Source: Halanaerobium saccharolyticum subsp. saccharolyticum DSM 6643 (GTDB lineage: Bacteria; Bacillota; Halanaerobiia; Halanaerobiales; Halanaerobiaceae). From it: a DNA stretch of 64,000 nt. Location of the stretch: assembly GCF_000350165.1 (NCBI RefSeq), contig NZ_CAUI01000023.1, positions 558,001 to 622,000 of the forward strand, written 5' to 3'. Numbering within the stretch: the first letter of the stretch is position 1; every line of letters begins with the position of its first letter. The notes under the pieces are model-generated. The model had not been told where the DNA came from and searched no databases. It saw nothing but the letters and a program-made list of their open reading frames with translations. A program made the position numbers and the translations under genes. Below are positions 2,784-63,039 of the stretch, in pieces.

Positions 2784-3674
2784 TTATCCTTCCTCTCTTT
2801 TACGCAAATATATTTGTGCCATGGAAACTAAGACTAAAATAATGAAAAAGGAAAAGGCCATTGCTGCACCATACCCCATACTGTTTTGTTTAAAACTTGT
2901 TTCATAAATATACTGAACTATTGGACGGGTATCTGTACCCGGGCCACCACCGGTAATTAACCAGACCTGTGAGAAAATCTTAAAAGAAAAAATTATCTGC
3001 AGTAAAGTTACTACCCAGGTTATAGGTTTTAAGGACGGTAAGGTGATATAAATTAGCTGCTGGAATTTGGTTGCCCCATCTACTTCAGCTGCTTCGTAAA
3101 AAGACTGTGGAATATCCTGTAGTGCTGCTAGATATAAGATCATATTAAAACCAACAGTCCACCATAAAGTCGCAAAAACTATAACAAACCAGGCCAGTTT
3201 TGTTTCTCCAAGCCAAAAAATAGTTTCTTCTACCCCAAAATAACTCTGTAAAATCCCATTTAATAGTCCGCTGTGGGGTTGGAAAAAATAAACCATGATC
3301 GAAGAAATAACTGCTACTGATAAAACATAAGGAAGGAAAAATGCTATTTTAATAAATAATTGCCCTTTAATTTTTTGATTTGCCAGTAATGCTAAAACTA
3401 AACCCCCAATAACAATTGTCGGTGTTGAAATAAGTACAAATAATAAAGTATTGCCTAAAGAACCCCAAAAAGCTGGATCTTTAATCATATAAAGATAATT
3501 ATCTAAACCAACAAAACCCATATTACGGATCATAGTCCAGCGGTGCAGGCTCATCCAAAAGCCTCGAAAAATCGGATAGATCAAAAATACCGCATAAACT
3601 ACAGCAAAGGGTAAAAGAAATGGTAAAGCCTTTAAAAACGGATAACGGTCAGATAATTGATTATATTTTTTCAA
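2784..3674 (-). CDS. Sugar ABC transporter permease, MalF type (TTG start)
   Basis: This is the partner permease of the CUT1 importer, with six predicted membrane segments and the EAA loop EAAEVDGATKFQQL near the C-terminus. The reading frame stays open to 3725, but GGAGG lies 7 nt before a TTG at 3674. That gives a 296-residue protein starting MKKYNQLSDRYPF, a normal MalF-type N-terminus, so I place the start there. It lies between the binding-protein and MalG-type genes in one minus-strand operon. Confidence 0.92.
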   Translation of the reverse strand: MKKYNQLSDRYPFLKALPFLLPFAVVYAVFLIYPIFRGFWMSLHRWTMIRNMGFVGLDNYLYMIKDPAFWGSLGNTLLFVLISTPTIVIGGLVLALLANQKIKGQLFIKIAFFLPYVLSVAVISSIMVYFFQPHSGLLNGILQSYFGVEETIFWLGETKLAWFVIVFATLWWTVGFNMILYLAALQDIPQSFYEAAEVDGATKFQQLIYITLPSLKPITWVVTLLQIIFSFKIFSQVWLITGGGPGTDTRPIVQYIYETSFKQNSMGYGAAMAFSFFIILVLVSMAQIYLRKREEG

Positions 3675-3749
3675 ATCGAAACCTCCTTTAAAAATTTTAT
3701 TTAGAGCACAGGTGCTTAAAAACACCTGTGCCTTAAAATCAACTTCTTT

Positions 3750-27305: not shown

Positions 27306-27324
27306 TTATATCACTCCAAATTAG

Positions 27325-28075
27325 TTATAAATTCTCTATTAAACATTCCCATTTTTTAATTATTGCATCTATCTCTAATTCTTTTGCTCTTTCAAAAATT
27401 CTTTTGCTCTTTCAAAAGCTTTTTTTATTAGTCTTGAAAAAGTTTTTATTAAATGCCATTGCCCTTTTTGATAATGCAGACTTCCCATTGTAATTATTGT
27501 TTTTTTAAAAAAAATATGCTCATATTTTTTTCCAACAGTGACTTTAGATTTTTCTGTAATTTTATTAATATCGTATGGGTTATATATAACTTCAATTTTG
27601 TTTTTAGGCACATTATAATTATCTGCTAATTCTTCTTTTATTTTTCTTGAGACAGAGACAACTGAATAAGCCTTTTTATAAAAAAATTTGCTTTAAGTTT
27701 ATTAAAGAAATGATACCTTTTAGAAATATAATTTCTAAAAGATATCATGATTTTCTCATTTTTTCTGGTAATAATATTTTGGAAGTTTGGTTGAGGCAAA
27801 AAGCTTATGACAACATCAAAATTATACTTCTCCTTAGCTTTCTTTAAAGCTTTTATTCTTTTTATATGACTATAAATATTTGCTAAAGCATTACTTTTTC
27901 TTCTATCTGCTAAATTTATTAGTTTAGCCTTATAAGGATAAAATATCTTATTCTTATCATATACAATTAGATGTTTTTCATATTTGCTGCTGTCAAGTTT
28001 CAGAGTAAAATTAGAAACAACCCTTTCAGCCCCACCGCCACCTAAATTCGGAATAAAAAAAGCTATTTTTTTATA
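27325..28075 (-). pseudogene. Decayed GT4 glycosyltransferase gene
   Basis: Reading minus-strand frames in order recovers a GT-B glycosyltransferase: KKIAFFIPNLGGGGAERVV, then YKKAYSVVSVSRKIKEEL, then GSLHYQKGQWHLIKTFSRL, and a tail ending KKWECLIENL. Lesions are: no start codon (removing one G from ATG gives the present TATAAAAAAATA); a 7-T run at 27672-27678 where 8 would restore frame; a 20-bp tandem duplication (27377-27396 and 27397-27416) that shifts frame; and about 100-130 codons missing from the middle of the C-terminal domain, judged by the ~240-residue total versus ~370 for the family. A good AGGAGG remains upstream. Confidence 0.88.
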
Positions 28076-28100
28076 GCAATTCCCTCCTAAAAATCAATAT

Positions 28101-29201
28101 CTATTTACTTAAAAATTCCTTTTCTATATTTTTTATCATATTATTAAAAGTATAATTTTCTTTATAAATTTCATGTGCATAATTACCCATTTTTTCTCTT
28201 TCCTTATTCTGAATCATTTTAAATAATGCATCCGCAAATTTTTCTTTATTTCGTGCAGTTAAATATCCAGTTTCCCCATCAATAACTAACTCTCTAACAC
28301 TTGGAATATCAACAGAAACAATCGGTTTTGCAGCTGCCATAGTTTCTAAAATTATCCATGGGCATCCTTCATATATAGCAGAATGGGCTACAAAATCAAC
28401 TTGACTTAAGATAGAAGGAATATCATCTCTAAATCCAGTAAATATTATTTTATCTTCTAAGTTTAAGGTCTCAACTAAATTTTTAAACTTTTTATGATGA
28501 TCCCCAGTTCCAATAAATAAAACTTTAAATTTTTTATATTTTTTTTCTAGTACACTAATAGCATTTATTAAATCCTGTTGAGCTTTCTGCCTTCCTAGCC
28601 TTCCAATATTAGCTATTACCGTATCTTCTTCATCAATATTATATTCTTTTCTTAAATCACTTTTTATATTGGAATTAACAAATTTATCATAATTAACACC
28701 ATTATAAATCAATTTAATTTTATCACCTGATATTAAATCTTTAGGTAACTTTTCTAAACTTTTTTCTAATGTTGTTTTAGAAATCGCCATAAAATCTGTT
28801 ACAAAATTTTTGAGTGCTAATCTATTATAAAAATGATTATTTATAGGTTTGGCTAAAGCTCTTCTATATATAATTTTATCAACCCCAGCAAGGTAACCAG
28901 CTAAAGAAGCAAATTTAAAATGAGAAGATTGACAAAAAAACATAACTTCAATTTTATTTTTTTTTAAATATTTCTTTAATCTATGTACTCTAAGCATGTT
29001 TAGAAAAGTACCACTGTCTATCTTCTCTATAGTTTCAACTTGTAAATTAGCCTCCCTACATTTTTTCAAAAAAGGTGTTCCTGCTTTAGCTAAAATAAAA
29101 ACATTATGCCCTATTTCATTTAAAGCTTTCGCAGTTTTGTAATTCCAACCTTCTACGCCACCCCATATTATACCTGTATTAATAAATAAAATATTTTTCA
29201 T
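28101..29201 (-). CDS. GT4-family glycosyltransferase
   Basis: This intact 366-residue GT-B enzyme has the N-terminal loop GIIWGGVEGW and donor-site IANIGRLGRQKAQQDL, then EGCPWIILETMAAAKPIVSV (nucleotide-sugar Glu region). The frame opens at 29216 with GTG, but GGGAG lies 8 nt before ATG at 29201. It is closely similar in style to the GT4 at 31709-32812, suggesting they are paralogues. It should add a sugar to the LPS core or O-chain at the inner-membrane face. Confidence 0.9.
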   Translation of the reverse strand: MKNILFINTGIIWGGVEGWNYKTAKALNEIGHNVFILAKAGTPFLKKCREANLQVETIEKIDSGTFLNMLRVHRLKKYLKKNKIEVMFFCQSSHFKFASLAGYLAGVDKIIYRRALAKPINNHFYNRLALKNFVTDFMAISKTTLEKSLEKLPKDLISGDKIKLIYNGVNYDKFVNSNIKSDLRKEYNIDEEDTVIANIGRLGRQKAQQDLINAISVLEKKYKKFKVLFIGTGDHHKKFKNLVETLNLEDKIIFTGFRDDIPSILSQVDFVAHSAIYEGCPWIILETMAAAKPIVSVDIPSVRELVIDGETGYLTARNKEKFADALFKMIQNKEREKMGNYAHEIYKENYTFNNMIKNIEKEFLSK

Positions 29202-29231
29202 AATAAAAACTCCCACTAAATATAAATTTGA

Positions 29232-30370
29232 TTATATTTCATCAATAAAATTCAAAATTTTTGATCCTCTTTTACGCCATAATAATTGTTCACTAAAATC
29301 ATAAATATTATTAACAATTTTTAGATAAAGATCCTTATCTTCATTCAAAACTTCAATTTTATTTGCCAAATCTTTACTATTTCTAGTTTTATAAAGCAAA
29401 CCATACTTTTGATTTAAAATTTCTTTAATTGACAGTAAATCTGTACCAACAAAGGGTATTCCATGAGAAAAATAATTAAATATTTTTATTGGAGAAGTCA
29501 AATTACGATTAAAAAAATTATCCTTTAAAGGTACTAAACCAATTTTAACACTTTTTAGAATTTCATCAATTTCTTTTCTTTCAACCCAACCAGTTATTCT
29601 AATCTTATCTTCTATACCTATTTTTTCTGCTAAGTTATTATAGTAATTTATTTGTTTATCATTTGTACCACCAATAATTATTAATTTGCCAAATTTTTCA
29701 TCTATTAATTTTAAAGATTTAAATACAGTTTCTAAATCTTTGCGGTTTCCTAATGCCCCAATATAGGCAATATCTTTTTTTGAAATTATTTTTTCTAAAT
29801 CATAGCGATAGATTTTATTAATTCCGGTCCTAGCCATTAAATAATTTTGATTACGGAAATGATTTTTATATAAGTTCTTCAAGATATTTTGATGACATAT
29901 TATTCCATCTAATCTCCCCAAGAAAATTTTTTGAAACAATTTCTTTTTATAGTGTCTTTTCTCTTTTTTGTCTAGATCAAGATAATAATCATGGGCTTCA
30001 TAAATAACTTTTAGATTATATTTCTTTTTTAAGAAGAATAAATATGGTAAAAATCCAACTTTCCTTGTTATAATGACATCTAATTGTCTGTTTTTAGCTG
30101 GTTTTGATAAATACTATAAGCTTTAAAATAAAACTTTGTCGTTTGACTAAATCTAGTTTTATTATCAAGAAATTTCACATTGAAATTGCTAATTTTTTTA
30201 ATCCAAAATAGTTTTTTAGAGACAATCCGACATCTTTTGATTCTCCAGACATTATTAACTCAACATCATTGTTTTTATCAGCCTTTGCTATTCCATAACT
30301 AGTGAATGTTGTAAAGCTAACTCCAGCTGCTACTAGGCCACTCTCTACCAAAAACATATTTAATATACAT
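29232..30370 (-). pseudogene. Frameshifted GT4 glycosyltransferase gene
   Basis: Four minus-strand frame segments join into one ~375-residue GT4. A possible start at 30370 reads MYIKYV. It continues as ESGLVAAGVSFTTFTSYG, then FNVKFLDNKTRFSQTTKFYF, then DVIITRKVGFLPYLFFLKKK, and finally YIGALGNRKDLETVFKSLK. The junctions fall at short runs: a T5 near 30354 (4 would fit), an A7 near 30190 (8 would fit) and an A5 near 30090 (6 would fit). The last segment alone (29232-29939) is open for 235 codons from a TTG with no ribosome binding site. It is either a pseudogene, phase-variable, or affected by sequencing error in homopolymers. Confidence 0.85.
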
Positions 30371-30491: not shown

Positions 30492-31706
30492 CTAAACTGA
30501 TTTTGAACTTAAATTTGATAACTCATCATATTCTGAATTTTTTAATACAATACTTAAAGCAATAACAACCCAAAAAAAACTTAAAGGTTCAGTTTTACCA
30601 AAATTATATTGAGTCAAACCTTGAACCAAATAAATGACAATCATAATTATAGTTGATAAATGAAATATTTTAACATTAATTTTAGATTCTTCTTTGTAAA
30701 AAATAATAACCTTTTTTAATGTAAAATACATTAAATATAAAAAACTGAAAAGACCAAAAAGACCAATTTCAGAACCAAATTGTAAAAAAGTATTATGAAC
30801 ATGAATATAACCTTTTGGTTTGATTTCATCAACTTTATATTTATCAGAAAGGGGCGTTCTATAATTATCATATCCTAGACCAATTACAGGGTTATCTTTA
30901 ATTATATCTATTGCTGTTTTCCACATTGCAATTCTATAAGCGTTTGAACTGTTTTCTTCAAAATCATAACTAATATCAAAACTACTTTTGAACCTGTTAG
31001 TATATTGTGGTGGCATAACCAAAAACAATATAGTTAAAAATACTAAAAATAATACTATCAATTTTCTGCTCTTGATTAATCCAAGCACAAAAATACCAAC
31101 TATAAATGCTAACCATGCTCCCCTAGATTTGGAAAAAATTAAATTCAAAACAAAAATAAAATTAATTAAAAATAAAATTATTTTAGTTCTTTTATTTAAA
31201 TCACTCCAAAAAATATAAATAATCATAGTTGTAACCATTACTGCAATTAAATTACCAAAAGTTAAAGAAAATGAAAATGCTTTTATTCTAGCATAATCAA
31301 GAAAATAATATTGATATAAACCATAAATTGAGGCAATAATCGATGAAGCCATTAATAATGAGATAATAATTTTAACTTCCTTTTTATTCTTGATTTCATT
31401 TATAAAAATAAAGAAAAACAAAAAAGAAAACATGAACTTATTACTTAAAATCTCATTATTCCAGTTATTTAATCCCGAAATAAAGATAGAAAGGGTAAAT
31501 ATAGACATAGGTATTAAAAAACCTTTAAAATCATAACTACTAATTATTTTATCTTTTAATATAATTTTTATTAACCAAAACAAAATAGTTAGTATTGATC
31601 CAATATTTATTGCTGCATTAGAAATGAAAATCGAAAAACAAGTCAGATAAATTGATACTATAATACAATAATCTATTTTATTTGAAATAACCTTTTTAAT
31701 ATCCAA
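30492..31706 (-). CDS. O-antigen ligase-like membrane protein (WaaL/Wzy_C)
   Basis: This 404-residue protein has about ten hydrophobic segments and a long periplasmic loop containing the family region (GLGYDNYRTPLSDKY..., then HVHNTFLQFGSEIGL). The family joins O-antigen or other glycans to lipid A-core in the periplasm, or polymerises them. It overlaps almost directly with the preceding GT4 gene. I call it a ligase by context, but an O-antigen polymerase cannot be excluded. Confidence 0.82.
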   Translation of the reverse strand: MDIKKVISNKIDYCIIVSIYLTCFSIFISNAAINIGSILTILFWLIKIILKDKIISSYDFKGFLIPMSIFTLSIFISGLNNWNNEILSNKFMFSFLFFFIFINEIKNKKEVKIIISLLMASSIIASIYGLYQYYFLDYARIKAFSFSLTFGNLIAVMVTTMIIYIFWSDLNKRTKIILFLINFIFVLNLIFSKSRGAWLAFIVGIFVLGLIKSRKLIVLFLVFLTILFLVMPPQYTNRFKSSFDISYDFEENSSNAYRIAMWKTAIDIIKDNPVIGLGYDNYRTPLSDKYKVDEIKPKGYIHVHNTFLQFGSEIGLFGLFSFLYLMYFTLKKVIIFYKEESKINVKIFHLSTIIMIVIYLVQGLTQYNFGKTEPLSFFWVVIALSIVLKNSEYDELSNLSSKSV

Positions 31707-31708
31707 AT

Positions 31709-32812
31709 TTAAGCCTCCAAAAATCTCTTTATTCTTTCTATCATTATCTCCAGTGTAAAATTTTCTTCTATAACTTCCCTACCTCTTATCCCAAAATTAT
31801 TTTTATTTTTTTGCTCTATCATTTTTAACATCTTAGCAGCTATATCTTCACTATTTCCAGCTTCAGCTAAATAACCAGTTTCACCCTCAACAACGATTTC
31901 AGAAATATTACTGACATCAGTACTCACAACAGGCAGTCCTGCTGCCATTGCTTCGGCAATTACAAAACCAAAGCCTTCCCAGCGTGCTGTATGTACTAAA
32001 AAATCTAAACCAGGCAAAAGACTATATACATCATCTCTAAATCCTGTAAAAACTATATGGTCTTCTATTTTTTTTTCTTTAACCAGTTTTTTTATTTCCT
32101 CTTCTCTTTCGCCATCTCCAATTATTAAAACAACAAAATCTTCTCTTTCCTGCTTTAGTAATTCTACGGCTTCGATCAAAAATTCATGCCCTTTTTGATA
32201 ACTTAAACGACCTATATTACCAATTATTATATTGTCATCAGCAATTCCAAATTCTTGCTTTAAATTTACTGCATTTTCTAAACCCTTATCTATTTTATCT
32301 AAATCTATCCCATTATAAATTAATTCAATTTTCCCTTCATTTAACCAGTGAGAAGTGTTGCGCAAAATAGTTTCTTTTGTTGATTTAGAATTAGCAATAA
32401 TATCTGTTACACATTCTGTTAATAAATATTTATTATAAAATCTATTTTTAATTGGTATAGCACTACCACGCCGATAAATAATTCTCTCTAGGCCGGCTAA
32501 TTTACCGGTGATTCCACCAAATTTTAAGTCCTGAGACATATTTGAAAACATTATATCAATTTTTTTATCTTTTAAAAAGCTGACAAAATTTTTAACTTTA
32601 AAAGGATTTAAAACTGTTATCCCGCTTTTTACTTTAACTTCACTGGTTTTAATCCCGGCTTCTTTTGCCCTCTTAAATAGTTCTGTATCTCTGCCAGTTG
32701 CAATATAAATATTAAACGCTGGATCATTATTTAATATTTTAGCTGTGGTGAAGGTCCATTTTTCACCACCACCCCAGACAGGACAGCTGTTTAGAAAAAC
32801 TATGTTTTTCAT
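31709..32812 (-). CDS. GT4-family glycosyltransferase
   Basis: This 367-residue GT-B enzyme has SCPVWGGGEKW near the N-terminus and GNIGRLSYQKGHEFLIEAV and ARWEGFGFVIAEAMAAGLPV in the donor-binding half. Its ATG overlaps the stop of the GT2 gene by one base (TAATG). It should extend the LPS core. Its paralogue lies at 28101-29201; both begin with a matching NSCPVWGG/NTGIIWGG loop. Confidence 0.92.
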   Translation of the reverse strand: MKNIVFLNSCPVWGGGEKWTFTTAKILNNDPAFNIYIATGRDTELFKRAKEAGIKTSEVKVKSGITVLNPFKVKNFVSFLKDKKIDIMFSNMSQDLKFGGITGKLAGLERIIYRRGSAIPIKNRFYNKYLLTECVTDIIANSKSTKETILRNTSHWLNEGKIELIYNGIDLDKIDKGLENAVNLKQEFGIADDNIIIGNIGRLSYQKGHEFLIEAVELLKQEREDFVVLIIGDGEREEEIKKLVKEKKIEDHIVFTGFRDDVYSLLPGLDFLVHTARWEGFGFVIAEAMAAGLPVVSTDVSNISEIVVEGETGYLAEAGNSEDIAAKMLKMIEQKNKNNFGIRGREVIEENFTLEIMIERIKRFLEA

Positions 32813-33573
32813 TATTTATCATCCCCAAAATTATTTAATTCCCAGAGTTTAATTGCTTTTAAGAATTGATAATAAGATGACAAAGTAGATAAAATCAATC
32901 CCTGACTACCTAATAAAAAACCTTTTTTGAATAAATATTTTTTTATAAATTCCAAAAAAGTTCTGATTAAAATATAAGAAATACTAACTGATTTACCAGC
33001 ATTATATTTCTTTTCTGCATCAAGGGTAGTATATTGATTCATTTTAGCTGCATAACTCTCTAAATCTTGATAGGTATAATGAATAAAATCATTCTCTAGC
33101 TTTTTGATTTCACCACTTATTTGAGGAGACTCATGGACTAAACCACTATATCTATATTTGCTTTTAAATAGTCTTAAAGTATAATCAGGATACCAGCCGC
33201 AGTATTTAATCCACTTACCTAAAAAATAATTTTTACGGGCTATTTCATATCCTTCAGCCTTAGCTTCAGTTTCATTTAAGGTTGCTATTATCTCTGCTTT
33301 TAATTCCTCAGTAGCTCTTTCATCAGCATCAATAACAAATACCCAGTCAGTTTTGATTTTATTTAGACCAAAGTTTCTTTGAGCAGCAAAGTCTTTGAAT
33401 TCATTTTCATAAAAATCAACATTGTCATACTGCTGACAGATAGCTTTTGTCTGATCATTACTAAAAGAATCAACAACTACAATCCGCTCGATCCAATTGA
33501 TACTTTCTAAACAATCAGCAATCTGATCTTGCTCATTATAAGTCAGGACTAAAGCACTCAGCTTTTTCATCAT
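32812..33573 (-). CDS. GT2-family glycosyltransferase, WaaE/KdtX-like
   Basis: This 253-residue GT-A enzyme has LVLTYNEQDQIADCLESI at its start, VVVDSFSNDQTKAI, and a metal-binding VIDADERAT. The size and KIKTDWVFVIDADER pattern match WaaE-like LPS-core beta-glucosyltransferases. Two consecutive ATG codons overlap the stop of the heptosyltransferase gene, with GAGGG upstream. It probably adds a hexose to the inner core heptose. Confidence 0.88.
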   Translation of the reverse strand: MMKKLSALVLTYNEQDQIADCLESINWIERIVVVDSFSNDQTKAICQQYDNVDFYENEFKDFAAQRNFGLNKIKTDWVFVIDADERATEELKAEIIATLNETEAKAEGYEIARKNYFLGKWIKYCGWYPDYTLRLFKSKYRYSGLVHESPQISGEIKKLENDFIHYTYQDLESYAAKMNQYTTLDAEKKYNAGKSVSISYILIRTFLEFIKKYLFKKGFLLGSQGLILSTLSSYYQFLKAIKLWELNNFGDDK

Positions 33574-34649
33574 ATCATTCCCTCAGCTTCTAATCTTTGA
33601 ATTATCATTTTAGGACTCAACTCTCTCATACACTTAAAATGATCAAGTGGGCACTCATGTTCTCCACAGGGGCGGCAATTTAAATCAACATTTTTAAATA
33701 AAATATTCTTCCCCTGACCTCTGGGTGCATACATTTCTTCATCAGAAGGTCCAAAAATAGCAGCAGTATTTGTGCCAACAGCAGCTGCCACATGAACCGG
33801 GCCAGTATCACCACTAATCATAAGTTGTGTCTTTTTCAGAATTGCAGCCAGCTCTAATAACGATGTTTTACCACTTAAATTATATATCATTTTTTGATTG
33901 TCGATTTTATTACAAATATAGTTAACTCTTTCTGTATCAGAAGCTCCCCCCACAAAAAGAATCTTATAACCCTTCACAGCTAAATGATCAGCAACTTCTG
34001 CAAAATATTCTTCCGGCCAGCGTTTAGTTTTCCAGCTGCCACCAGTATTTAAAACAATAAACTCCTCATCTTCTAAGCCAATATTTTTCAGCTTAAGATC
34101 AGCATTTTGCTGATAAACATCATCAAATTCTAAAACAGGAAACTTATTCTCACTATTTTCTAATTTGATCTTATTCTGAAGTTCATTATTTTCTGCAAAA
34201 TATTGCTCTAAAAGCTGACTCTGCTGCATCTGCTCTAAAAAATCTAAATAAAATTCTATCATATGTGATGAAATATCTTTTTCCACTTCTTCATCTAAGA
34301 AAACCCCTCTACCTTTTCCTCCATAGCCAATGCTCTGCTCAGCAGAAATTAATTTTAAAAGTAAAGCGGTACGCCAGTTCCCGTGAATATTAATCCCCAG
34401 ATGATAATTGTTCATCTTCAGCTTTTTAGCAAAACTATAGGAGCGGGCAGCAGTCCAATTTTTATTATAACTATAGACATGATCTATATTATCATTAGCT
34501 CTCATTATCTCAGAAAAATTACTATTTGCAACCAGGTCAATTCTGGCCTCTGGAAACATTTCTCTTAAACCTTCAAAAAACGGATGTGCAAATAATAAAT
34601 CTCCCAGATATAAGAGGTCAACAACTATTATTCTCTTAACAGCTTTCAT
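33570..34649 (-). CDS. GT9 heptosyltransferase-family protein (WaaF-like)
   Basis: The 359-residue GT9 protein begins with VDLLYLGDLLFAHPF and carries GGSWKTKRWPEEYF and the donor-site SGDTGPVHVAAAVGT. Near the C-terminus four cysteines (CRPC...C...C) occur as in many heptosyltransferase-II-like proteins. It should transfer heptose or a similar sugar onto Kdo-lipid A. No heptose biosynthesis gene lies in the window, so the sugar is an inference. Confidence 0.87.
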   Translation of the reverse strand: MKAVKRIIVVDLLYLGDLLFAHPFFEGLREMFPEARIDLVANSNFSEIMRANDNIDHVYSYNKNWTAARSYSFAKKLKMNNYHLGINIHGNWRTALLLKLISAEQSIGYGGKGRGVFLDEEVEKDISSHMIEFYLDFLEQMQQSQLLEQYFAENNELQNKIKLENSENKFPVLEFDDVYQQNADLKLKNIGLEDEEFIVLNTGGSWKTKRWPEEYFAEVADHLAVKGYKILFVGGASDTERVNYICNKIDNQKMIYNLSGKTSLLELAAILKKTQLMISGDTGPVHVAAAVGTNTAAIFGPSDEEMYAPRGQGKNILFKNVDLNCRPCGEHECPLDHFKCMRELSPKMIIQRLEAEGMI

Positions 34650-34677
34650 TATTATCAGTCCTTCGTAATCTAAAATC

Positions 34678-35733
34678 TTAAAGCTCTAATTTTTTCTTTG
34701 AAATTCTTAAAACCTGATCCACTGTTATAGACTTCATACACTGCATTTTGCGGCTGCAGTGTTTATCCCAGCAGCGAATACATTCTAAACTGTTATCTTG
34801 AATTACGGTATGGCCTTCACCATAAGGCCCATGAGTATCAGGATCAGTTGGCCCCATCAGCGAAATAACATTTAAGCCGACTGCAGCTGCCAAATGAGTT
34901 GGTCCTGTATCTCCACCAATATATAACGAAGCTCTATTGTAAACTTCTGTTAACTCCTCTAAATTAGTCTTAGCTGCTAGATTGCAATAACTAGCTTCAT
35001 CAAGAGATTCAAAGCTATCAATAGCCTCTTTATCTCCAGGCGCACCAGTAAAAATAACATAATAACCCGACTTAATAAATTCATTAGCCAGCTGAAAATA
35101 ACGCTCCAAAAACCAGTTTTTAGACTCCCAGGTTGTAAAAGGATTAATTACTACTAGCTTTTTATTCTGATCAACATTTTCTGTTTCAAATAAACGACTG
35201 ACCCTACTTTTAATAATTGGAGTCATTTTCAAGCCATAGTTGACTTCATCAGTTTCTGCATCTAAAGCAGAAGCTAAATGTAGATTTCTTTCAATTTTAT
35301 GCATTTTTTTATCTGGAATATCTATCTTTGCCTGATAAAACAAGGTGCTTAATTCTCTGCCATCAGCAGGACCAATTCTGAGCCCAGGTTTAATCAGAAA
35401 AGAACTTAAAGCACTCTTGAATAGTCCATGGAGATCAAGATTGATATCATAATTTTCCTTTTTCATTTTTTTAAAAAACTTAAAAAAGGATCTTACTGCT
35501 CCTATAAAATCACGGCTTAACATTTCCCTCCACTGTTTACGAGGTAATAAAATAACATTATCTAGATAGGGATTCAATTTAACAAGTGGATAAGCCTTAG
35601 CTTCAACTAACCAATCAATTTGAGCTTCAGGATATTTTTGTCTTAAAGCATAAGCTACAGGTAATGCATGAATAACATCTCCTATAGCACTAAGCCTTGT
35701 AATTAAAATCTTTTCTCCTTTATTCTCCTGCAT
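34678..35733 (-). CDS. GT9 heptosyltransferase-family protein (WaaC/F-like)
   Basis: This 351-residue GT9 enzyme has ITRLSAIGDVIHALPVAYAL at the N-terminus, NPFTTWESKNW, and GGDTGPTHLAAAVGL. It has a C-terminal CIRCW...C...C cluster similar to its neighbour. Its start lies 14 bp inside the waaA gene, so translation is coupled. Together the two GT9 genes would build the inner core immediately after Kdo addition. Confidence 0.88.
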   Translation of the reverse strand: MQENKGEKILITRLSAIGDVIHALPVAYALRQKYPEAQIDWLVEAKAYPLVKLNPYLDNVILLPRKQWREMLSRDFIGAVRSFFKFFKKMKKENYDINLDLHGLFKSALSSFLIKPGLRIGPADGRELSTLFYQAKIDIPDKKMHKIERNLHLASALDAETDEVNYGLKMTPIIKSRVSRLFETENVDQNKKLVVINPFTTWESKNWFLERYFQLANEFIKSGYYVIFTGAPGDKEAIDSFESLDEASYCNLAAKTNLEELTEVYNRASLYIGGDTGPTHLAAAVGLNVISLMGPTDPDTHGPYGEGHTVIQDNSLECIRCWDKHCSRKMQCMKSITVDQVLRISKKKLEL

Positions 35734-37039
35734 TATAATCTTCTCCCTGCTTTAATAAAACATCTATCAGCTGCAGTTGTTTTCGCACTGAACCTCTATT
35801 TTTATCAATTAGCTCAGCCGCTTTTTCTGCTCTCTGCTTCCTATACTCATCATTTGCCAGAAGTTGATAACACTTTTCAAAAAAATCATCACTATTTTCA
35901 ACTTCAAAACCCACTTCATTTTCAAGCAGAAAATCTCTCTCCTCTTTAAAATTGTACATGCTTTGACCAAATAAAACAACTTTGGCTCTGGCTGCAGCCT
36001 CAATAACATTATGGCCTCCCCGATCTATCAAAGAACCCCCAATAAAAACTAAATCTGAATAAAAATAAAGCTGGGCCAACTCGCCCATGGTATCAACAAT
36101 TATAATATCCGTATCTTCTGCCAGCAAAATTTCATTTCTTTTAAGTTCAGAATACAAAACAGCTGCTATTTCCTTATCCTGACAGAGACTTAAGAGTTCC
36201 TCTCTGCGCTCAACATAACGAGGCGCAATTAAAATTTTCAGCTGATTAAACTCTGCTTTTAACTGCTGATAAAGATTTAAAATTATCTCTTCCTCACCTT
36301 GATGAGTACTACCAGCTACTAAAACCTTTGTCTTATCATTTATTTTTAGCATCTCTTTTTTCGCCAGATATTGCTCTTTTGTAGGTGGCTTAAGATCTAG
36401 ATCATACTTTAAATTTCCATTAATACAAATATGATCTTCGGCAGCACCTAACTCATTAATTTTTTCAGCAGCTTCTCGATGCTGCATACTGAAAATATCT
36501 ATTCTATTTAACATATCTTCTAAAAGAGAACCTAAAATTTTATATTGTCCAAAAGAATCATCACTAATTCTACCACTAGCAAGCATTATTTGCGTTCCCT
36601 GTTGATCCAAAGCTTTAATTAAGTTTGGCCAGAGTTCAGTTTCAATCATAATAAATAAATCAGGCTTAAATTTATTAACTGCTTTTTTTACAACCCAATT
36701 TAAATCAAAGGGCAGATAAATAATCAAATCAGCACCTTCTATTTTCTTTTTGGCAAGGCTTTTCCCACTTGCTGTCATTGTAGAAAATATAATTCTAGCT
36801 TCTGGATATTTTTTTCTAATCTCAGAAGTTAGTTTTTGAGCTGCTAGAGTCTCCCCTGCAGAAGCAGCCTGAATCCAGATTACCTGATTTGCTGGAAATA
36901 AAAGATCTAAATTTTGATCATAAAAAGCAAAACGTTCTTTTAAATTTAGTTTTTCTCCACTCTTTTTGCTCTTAAAATAGTAATAGGGAAGTAAAAAAAC
37001 TGTTAAAACAGACAAAAGCAAATTATAAATCAAGTACAT
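35720..37039 (-). CDS. waaA: Kdo transferase
   Basis: This 439-residue GT30 enzyme attaches Kdo from CMP-Kdo to the lipid A precursor. It has an N-terminal membrane segment, the acceptor-site IQAASAGETLAAQKL with general-base Glu E63, then ETELWPNLIKALD and GSTHQGEEEIIL, and a GGSLIDRGGHNVIEAAA donor region. Whether it adds one or several Kdo residues cannot be told. It lies within a Kdo/lipid A gene run, which secures the call. Confidence 0.94.
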   Translation of the reverse strand: MYLIYNLLLSVLTVFLLPYYYFKSKKSGEKLNLKERFAFYDQNLDLLFPANQVIWIQAASAGETLAAQKLTSEIRKKYPEARIIFSTMTASGKSLAKKKIEGADLIIYLPFDLNWVVKKAVNKFKPDLFIMIETELWPNLIKALDQQGTQIMLASGRISDDSFGQYKILGSLLEDMLNRIDIFSMQHREAAEKINELGAAEDHICINGNLKYDLDLKPPTKEQYLAKKEMLKINDKTKVLVAGSTHQGEEEIILNLYQQLKAEFNQLKILIAPRYVERREELLSLCQDKEIAAVLYSELKRNEILLAEDTDIIIVDTMGELAQLYFYSDLVFIGGSLIDRGGHNVIEAAARAKVVLFGQSMYNFKEERDFLLENEVGFEVENSDDFFEKCYQLLANDEYRKQRAEKAAELIDKNRGSVRKQLQLIDVLLKQGEDYNAGE

Positions 37040-62021: not shown

Positions 62022-62186
62022 TCTAAAAACCCTTTCTCTTATAAAGTTAAATTAAACTTCCTTATTTTTTTATCATCTATTTATTTATATTCACTTAATA
62101 TCAGCAAAAATATTTAAAATTTTATCTATATAATTGTAATTATTTTAAATTTAATTAAAATATTACATTTAGTTATTATAATCAAA

Positions 62187-62222
62187 AAAGCCCTGACCAC
62201 TTAAAAAAGCAATCAGGGCTTT
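62187..62222 (-). terminator. Terminator after first cold-shock gene
   Basis: AAAGCCCTGA pairs with TCAGGGCTTT around a 16-nt loop, then T-rich sequence on the minus strand. Confidence 0.85.
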
Positions 62223-62250
62223 CAATTCTATTATAAAACTATTATTTGCT

Positions 62251-62454
62251 TTATAACTTAACGATGTTAGCAGCTTGTGGGCCGCGATCGCCTTCTACGA
62301 TTTCAAATTCTACTTCCTGACCTTCTTCAAGGTTTTTGAAACCTTCTTCTTCAATAGCTGAGAAGTGTGCGAACACGTCGTCTCCGTCTTCTCTTTCAAT
62401 AAAGCCAAAACCTTTTTTCCCATCAAACCACTTAACTGTTCCTGTGTAAATCAT
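62251..62454 (-). CDS. Cold-shock protein, CspA family
   Basis: This 67-residue single-stranded nucleic acid-binding protein has RNP1 KGFGFI and RNP2 DVFAHF. It differs from the copy at 62716-62919 by a single residue (EEEGF versus EEDGF). AGGAGG precedes the ATG. The promoter at 62518-62546 gives a ~55-nt leader containing a hairpin. It probably melts RNA structure in the cold. Confidence 0.96.
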
Positions 62455-62478
62455 TAAATTATTCCTCCTATTATTAAC

Positions 62479-62511
62479 GATGGAATTGTTACTTGTTTTT
62501 TGTTTTCCATC
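62479..62511 (-). promoter_or_regulatory. Leader hairpin of first cold-shock gene
   Basis: GATGGAA and TTCCATC pair around a 19-nt A/C-rich loop just upstream of the ribosome binding site. A similar hairpin occurs at 62947-62975. Confidence 0.5.
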
Positions 62512-62517
62512 TTTTAC

Positions 62518-62546
62518 AGTTTAGCATTATTATATGCTTCTGTCAA
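62518..62546 (-). promoter_or_regulatory. Promoter of first cold-shock gene
   Basis: TTGACA, 17 bp, TAAACT. Confidence 0.75.
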
Positions 62547-62655
62547 CTGTTATTTAAAATTATATTTTTATAACATTAATTTTCTCTTTTATAGATCGAC
62601 ATTTAGCCGACCAAACTCTTTTTGTGTTCTAGTTTACATTCTTATAAAGCAGCTT

Positions 62656-62692
62656 TAGAAAAGCTCTGTCCAATTAAATGAACAGAGCCTTA
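62656..62692 (-). terminator. Terminator after second cold-shock gene
   Basis: GCTCTGT pairs with ACAGAGC around a 12-nt loop, followed by TTTT on the minus strand. Confidence 0.8.
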
Positions 62693-62715
62693 AATTCATA
62701 AAACTATTTTATGCT

Positions 62716-62919
62716 TTATAATTTAACGATATTAGCAGCTTGTGGGCCGCGATCGCCTTCTACGATTTCGAATTCTACTTCTTGACCTTCTTCAAGGTTT
62801 TTGAAACCGTCTTCTTCAATAGCTGAGAAGTGTGCGAACACGTCGTCTCCGTCTTCTCTTTCAATAAAGCCAAAACCTTTTTTCCCATCAAACCACTTAA
62901 CTGTTCCTGTGTAAATCAT
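62716..62919 (-). CDS. Cold-shock protein, CspA family (second copy)
   Basis: This 67-residue protein is identical to its neighbour except Asp for Glu near residue 37, and the DNA is nearly identical as well. It has its own promoter (62983-63011) and terminator, so the two are a tandem duplication with separate expression, not an operon. RNP1 and RNP2 motifs are intact. Confidence 0.96.
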
Positions 62920-62946
62920 TAAATAAATTCCTCCTAATTTTTAACA

Positions 62947-62975
62947 ATGGAAATGTTTCTTGTTTTTTTCTCCAT
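62947..62975 (-). promoter_or_regulatory. Leader hairpin of second cold-shock gene
   Basis: ATGGA and TCCAT pair around a 19-nt A-rich loop resembling the first copy's loop (AAACAAG core). Confidence 0.45.
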
Positions 62976-62982
62976 CTCCCAT

Positions 62983-63011
62983 AGTATAGCATTCTGATAT
63001 AACTCTGTCAA
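62983..63011 (-). promoter_or_regulatory. Promoter of second cold-shock gene
   Basis: TTGACA, 17 bp, TATACT: close to consensus. Confidence 0.88.
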
Positions 63012-63039
63012 GGGTTATTTAAAATTATTTTGATATATC

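Follow-up and report, generated by a model that had tools for sequence, protein, structure and literature searches.

Is a glycosyltransferase gene that can be read only piecewise being switched on and off, being lost, or simply misread? The question is raised by a GT4-type gene in Halanaerobium saccharolyticum subsp. saccharolyticum DSM 6643T, in a 64,000 bp stretch of contig NZ_CAUI01000023.1, hereafter the window. The gene lies where the Halanaerobium LPS core / surface-polysaccharide cluster is variable, at its distal end. A preliminary description, made from the sequence, held that the gene can be read end to end only by changing frame at a T5, an A7 and an A5 run, with a single base needed at each junction, and proposed either slipped-strand phase variation of a surface-sugar enzyme or early decay.

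Table 1. Features of the distal LPS cluster end, in window coordinates.
Feature	Position	Strand	Basis
Degenerate GT4-type glycosyltransferase gene (probable pseudogene), starting with the ATG at 30370 and changing frame three times in its first ~275 bp	29232..30370	-	intact orthologues, frameshift-aware alignment, Pfam
Break 1: AGTAGCAGC, no homopolymer	30327..30336 (about)	-	frameshift-aware alignment
Break 2: at or adjoining A7 run 30193-30199	30188..30199	-	alignment; conserved Pro codon in intact relatives
Break 3: TATAGTATTTATCAAAACC, no run of 5 or more	30097..30117 (about)	-	frameshift-aware alignment
Open remainder, 293 codons, whole GT-B C-terminal domain	29235..30113	-	
Intact GT4 flanked by both broken GT4 genes	28101..29216	-	
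Second degenerate GT4 gene	27322..28074	-	alignment to intact G008 relative; Pfam
Tandem direct repeat, gaaagagcaaaagaa, two copies, at second gene's deletion point	27377..27420	-	read directly from sequence
Intact WaaL/Wzy-type O-antigen ligase	30492..31706	-	PF04932
Intact conserved LPS core genes: GT4, GT2, two heptosyltransferases, Kdo transferase	31709..37039	-	

Placement of the frame changes

The gene was indeed found to require three changes of frame. Breaks were placed by frameshift-aware alignment to three intact orthologues (G004, G013 and G011), against which the score was 31, -47 and -11 without frameshifts and 423, 317 and 353 with them. No single intact ORF covers both GT-B domains, the N-terminal part being the one that carries the three changes. 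As the sequence stands, three small indels break the frame, so that the full-length enzyme is not makeable by ordinary translation. Past the breaks, the 293 codons are free of stop codons and of additional indels. This open part matched two Pfam models of the GT4 family, Glycos_transf_1 and Glyco_trans_1_4, with 66.1 and 64 bits against cut-offs of 27 and 26.4 (E 5.1e-18 for Glyco_trans_1_4).

The positions of the breaks agreed only in part with the earlier placement. The first sits in CCTAGTAGCAGCTGG, where four window bases replace two codons. Measured against the codon count of the relatives, the gene is a net two bases short at this point, so that the claim of one base per junction does not hold. 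The T5 run (30350-30354) lies upstream, and the frame is the same on either side of it (YVFG in the window and in the relatives). Break 3 sits in GCTTATAGTATTTATCAAAACC, upstream of the A5 run (30091-30095), which is itself inside a matched, correctly framed block, AKNRQLDVIITRK. When the breaks were forced to the T5, A7 and A5 runs, the score dropped by 52, 34 and 54 (against G004, G013 and G011, respectively). Forcing the T5 run alone cost 39, 25 and 44, and the A5 run alone 13, 10 and 10. The alternative sites, taken with the A7 run, reached the free optimum to within 1. Thus the A7 placement stands, but at the other two junctions the frame does not break at a short homopolymer run, contrary to the earlier statement.

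Probable recent loss in a region of gene turnover

In most of the genus the order Kdo transferase-HepI-HepII-GT2-GT4-Wzy-type ligase is kept. The slot beyond the ligase differs by genome: it may hold the GT4 of the degenerate gene, a Kdo/WaaP-type kinase or different glycosyltransferases, and in some cases its content is not recognisable. Of the 60 other genomes searched, eight carried an intact orthologue of 381-399 aa. Five of these eight, of the same family (G004, G006, G008, G011 and G013), have the orthologue at the matching place in the cluster; elsewhere in the genus, other genes fill the slot or it stands empty, so that the gene is dispensable. The G004 orthologue (same genus, PF00534/PF13692, 381 aa) shares 56-57% identity with the open part and occupies the same syntenic slot, between a Wzy-type ligase and another GT4, and differs in having an intact open frame. 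A contig search with the open part gave a distant Richelia hit as its sole match.

Nearly all other genes in the window had been described as intact. The ORF list agrees, but the 795-bp gap at 27306-28100, which has no long ORF, hides a second broken GT4. In this remnant, an AGGAGG is followed by ATA-AAA-AAA-ATA at the expected position of the start codon. The protein reads on from there as KIAFFIPNLGGGGAERVV..., and around 27690 the frame shifts at least once, to give KFFYKKAYSVVSVSRKIKEELADNYNVPKNKIEVIYNP.... The segment 27378-27689 matched the GT4 N-terminal domain (Pfam Glyco_transf_4, E 1.3e-8), and aligning the remnant with an intact G008 relative revealed an internal deletion of ~142 residues at 27391-27392, with the C-terminal tail retained. 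Homopolymer-type base-calling errors do not account for the lost start and the deletion. Another segment of the window, 62022-63039 (1018 bp), is likewise without a long ORF, and had no match to the proteins of the relatives compared.

Disruption of this cluster end was also seen in a sister species (G001, L024 11229-13886), where a DDE_Tnp_1/DUF4372 transposase splits the orthologue of the intact GT4 that the two broken genes flank, with an integrase-type ORF (rve/HTH_38) nearby. Together with the variable content of the slot past the ligase, this indicates that gene turnover at the distal end of the cluster is recurrent.

Eight intact orthologues elsewhere and three frame changes here are the pattern of a pseudogene, and we consider it likely that the GT4 gene was recently pseudogenised in a fast-turning distal LPS region. 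Three small indels in its first quarter, one of them in the A7 run, would have broken the frame, and the neighbouring GT4 (~27322-28074) would have decayed further. The indel bases would then be true in the cells and the change fixed and recent. We infer also that the surface glycan has lost the sugar or sugars added by both enzymes. Decay, as the preliminary description had suggested as one of its two readings, is thus backed by two nearby degenerate GT4 genes and by the disruption of the same cluster end in a sister species.

That the loss is recent is suggested by the state of what remains. Columns invariant in the intact copies are still kept in the broken gene (13 of 14, and 56 of 61), and a relative-rate test of the broken gene versus its intact G004 counterpart detected no excess of amino-acid change (38 versus 54, and 37 versus 43). 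The latter result fits recent loss and does not in itself demonstrate relaxed selection. It could be held against decay that three indels accumulated while the other 293 codons acquired no stop and no indel, and while amino-acid change did not accelerate. However, 293 codons free of stops would be a surprise only if the neutral substitutions had numbered more than about 30. The three breaks span about 230 bp of the 1139, a clustering with p of about 0.11 if three positions are drawn at random along the gene. Clustered indels and a clean remainder mildly favour either a very recent loss or a local error in the sequence.

The case resembles the frameshifted glycosyltransferase pseudogenes of LPS/O-antigen clusters in having a dispensable distal glycosyltransferase, several small indels, a neighbouring remnant and transposases in a sister lineage. 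Nothing essential differs, the indels being here confined to the first quarter. For a Firmicute genus with an outer membrane, it is one small further example of genes coming and going in the outer-core part of the LPS cluster, and is otherwise ordinary.

Sequencing or assembly error

For the draft of DSM 6643T, MIRA was used to assemble 454 and Illumina reads, and contigs were joined by manual editing in Gap5 (PMC3642252); indel errors therefore needed to be considered. Uniform sequencing error was rejected, as three breaks fall within ~0.3 kb while the ~102 kb of conserved coding sequence compared contains no other frame-broken gene. Proteins of the relatives cover ~102-103 kb of distinct bases within the 402 kb compared, and the GT4 gene at 29232-30370 is the only frame-broken gene there. 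Scattered error, previously judged a weak explanation, is accordingly just that.

The other pair flagged in the 402-kb comparison was a break in G004, in a gene intact in DSM 6643T. The frame change in question (L058, contig C1, about 325,138-326,066) lies in the relative of the window gene 2784-3725 (313 aa).

A local error is a different matter. The gene would then be intact in the cells, and three wrong indels would come from a low-coverage or manually joined stretch of the 2013 assembly. The history of the assembly allows for such an accident, and so do the confinement of all three breaks to about 230 bp of 25% GC sequence and a remainder of the gene with neither stops nor faster evolution. 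The same ~102 kb without another broken gene speaks against it, however. Typical 454 errors fall at homopolymers, unlike two of these three sites. Moreover, T9 runs in two neighbouring GT4 genes (28957-28965 in the intact gene between the two broken ones, and 32068-32076 in the GT4 of the core cluster) leave the frame unbroken, which indicates that homopolymers in this region were not generally misread. Finally, the remnant at 27322-28074 is undeniably degenerate. We therefore regard a local error as unlikely, while giving it more weight than any of the explanations that follow.

Homopolymer tracts and other readings

The other reading offered by the preliminary description was slipped-strand phase variation, in which a reversible change of tract length would toggle the surface-sugar enzyme. 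One break does fall in the A7 run, and enzymes of this class are often phase-varied in host-associated bacteria (PMC5084427, PMC3397941). But only one of the three frame-breaking sites is in a homopolymer, and the other two are outside repeats, so that slippage at A7 alone would leave the gene off.

Neither is the tract itself unusual. Homopolymers of at least 5 bases occur 21 times in the 1139-bp gene. Across 273 intact ORFs (at least 200 aa, in 402 kb of the genome), A/T runs of at least 5 occur at 11.3 per kb and those of at least 7 at 1.36 per kb, the latter rising to 2.59 per kb in AT-rich intact genes. Runs of at least 7 are present in 196 of the 273 intact genes and in 43 of the 47 AT-rich ones, and tracts of 7-9 are found in intact genes of the host genome. 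Tracts of the size of T5, A7 and A5 carry no signal in this AT-rich genome. In such a genome, frame breaks near short A/T runs are no sign of phase variation until they have been placed against orthologues.

A comparison of tracts among relatives, proposed earlier as a check, gave no support either. In all six intact orthologues checked, one genome per species, the site of break 2 is a conserved Pro codon with no A/T run longer than 5, and no tract of varying length is kept there. Several intact orthologues bear runs of 7-9 elsewhere with the frame unbroken. Given the Pro codon in the relatives and the abundance of long A/T runs in intact genes, the A7 run is neither unusual nor conserved. The phase-variable LPS/LOS glycosyltransferases of Neisseria, Campylobacter and Helicobacter are alike in enzyme class and in having a break at a homopolymer. 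They differ from the present gene, in which two of three breaks are off repeats and the short A7 run is unconserved in relatives. A literature search for a link between Halanaerobium and phase variation found nothing beyond one passing co-mention. Phase variation of this gene appears very improbable.

The C-terminal 235-293 codons could still be expressed, either as a functional shortened protein or as one part of a split, two-part enzyme. In favour, the GT-B C-terminal domain lies entirely within the open part, which keeps 56 of 61 invariant columns. Against this, three interruptions fall in the N-terminal domain, the open ORF begins at an internal TTG (29939), and the orthologue was found in split form in no relative. 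We give this idea hardly any credence. Programmed frameshifting was rejected: the three shifts are separate, none is conserved, and every relative is read in one frame.

A broader proposal is that the distal LPS glycosyltransferases of Halanaerobium are reversibly switched or shuffled, with long A/T tracts, namely the T9 runs at 28957 and 32068 in place of the T5, A7 and A5 of the preliminary description, as contingency sites. We hold this to be highly doubtful. If true, reversible T9 switching would mean that a free-living halophile, a Firmicute with an outer membrane, uses phase variation. The 273 intact ORFs of the 402 kb contain only six A/T runs of at least 9, and two of them in a single LPS cluster is mildly unusual, possibly reflecting just its AT-richness.
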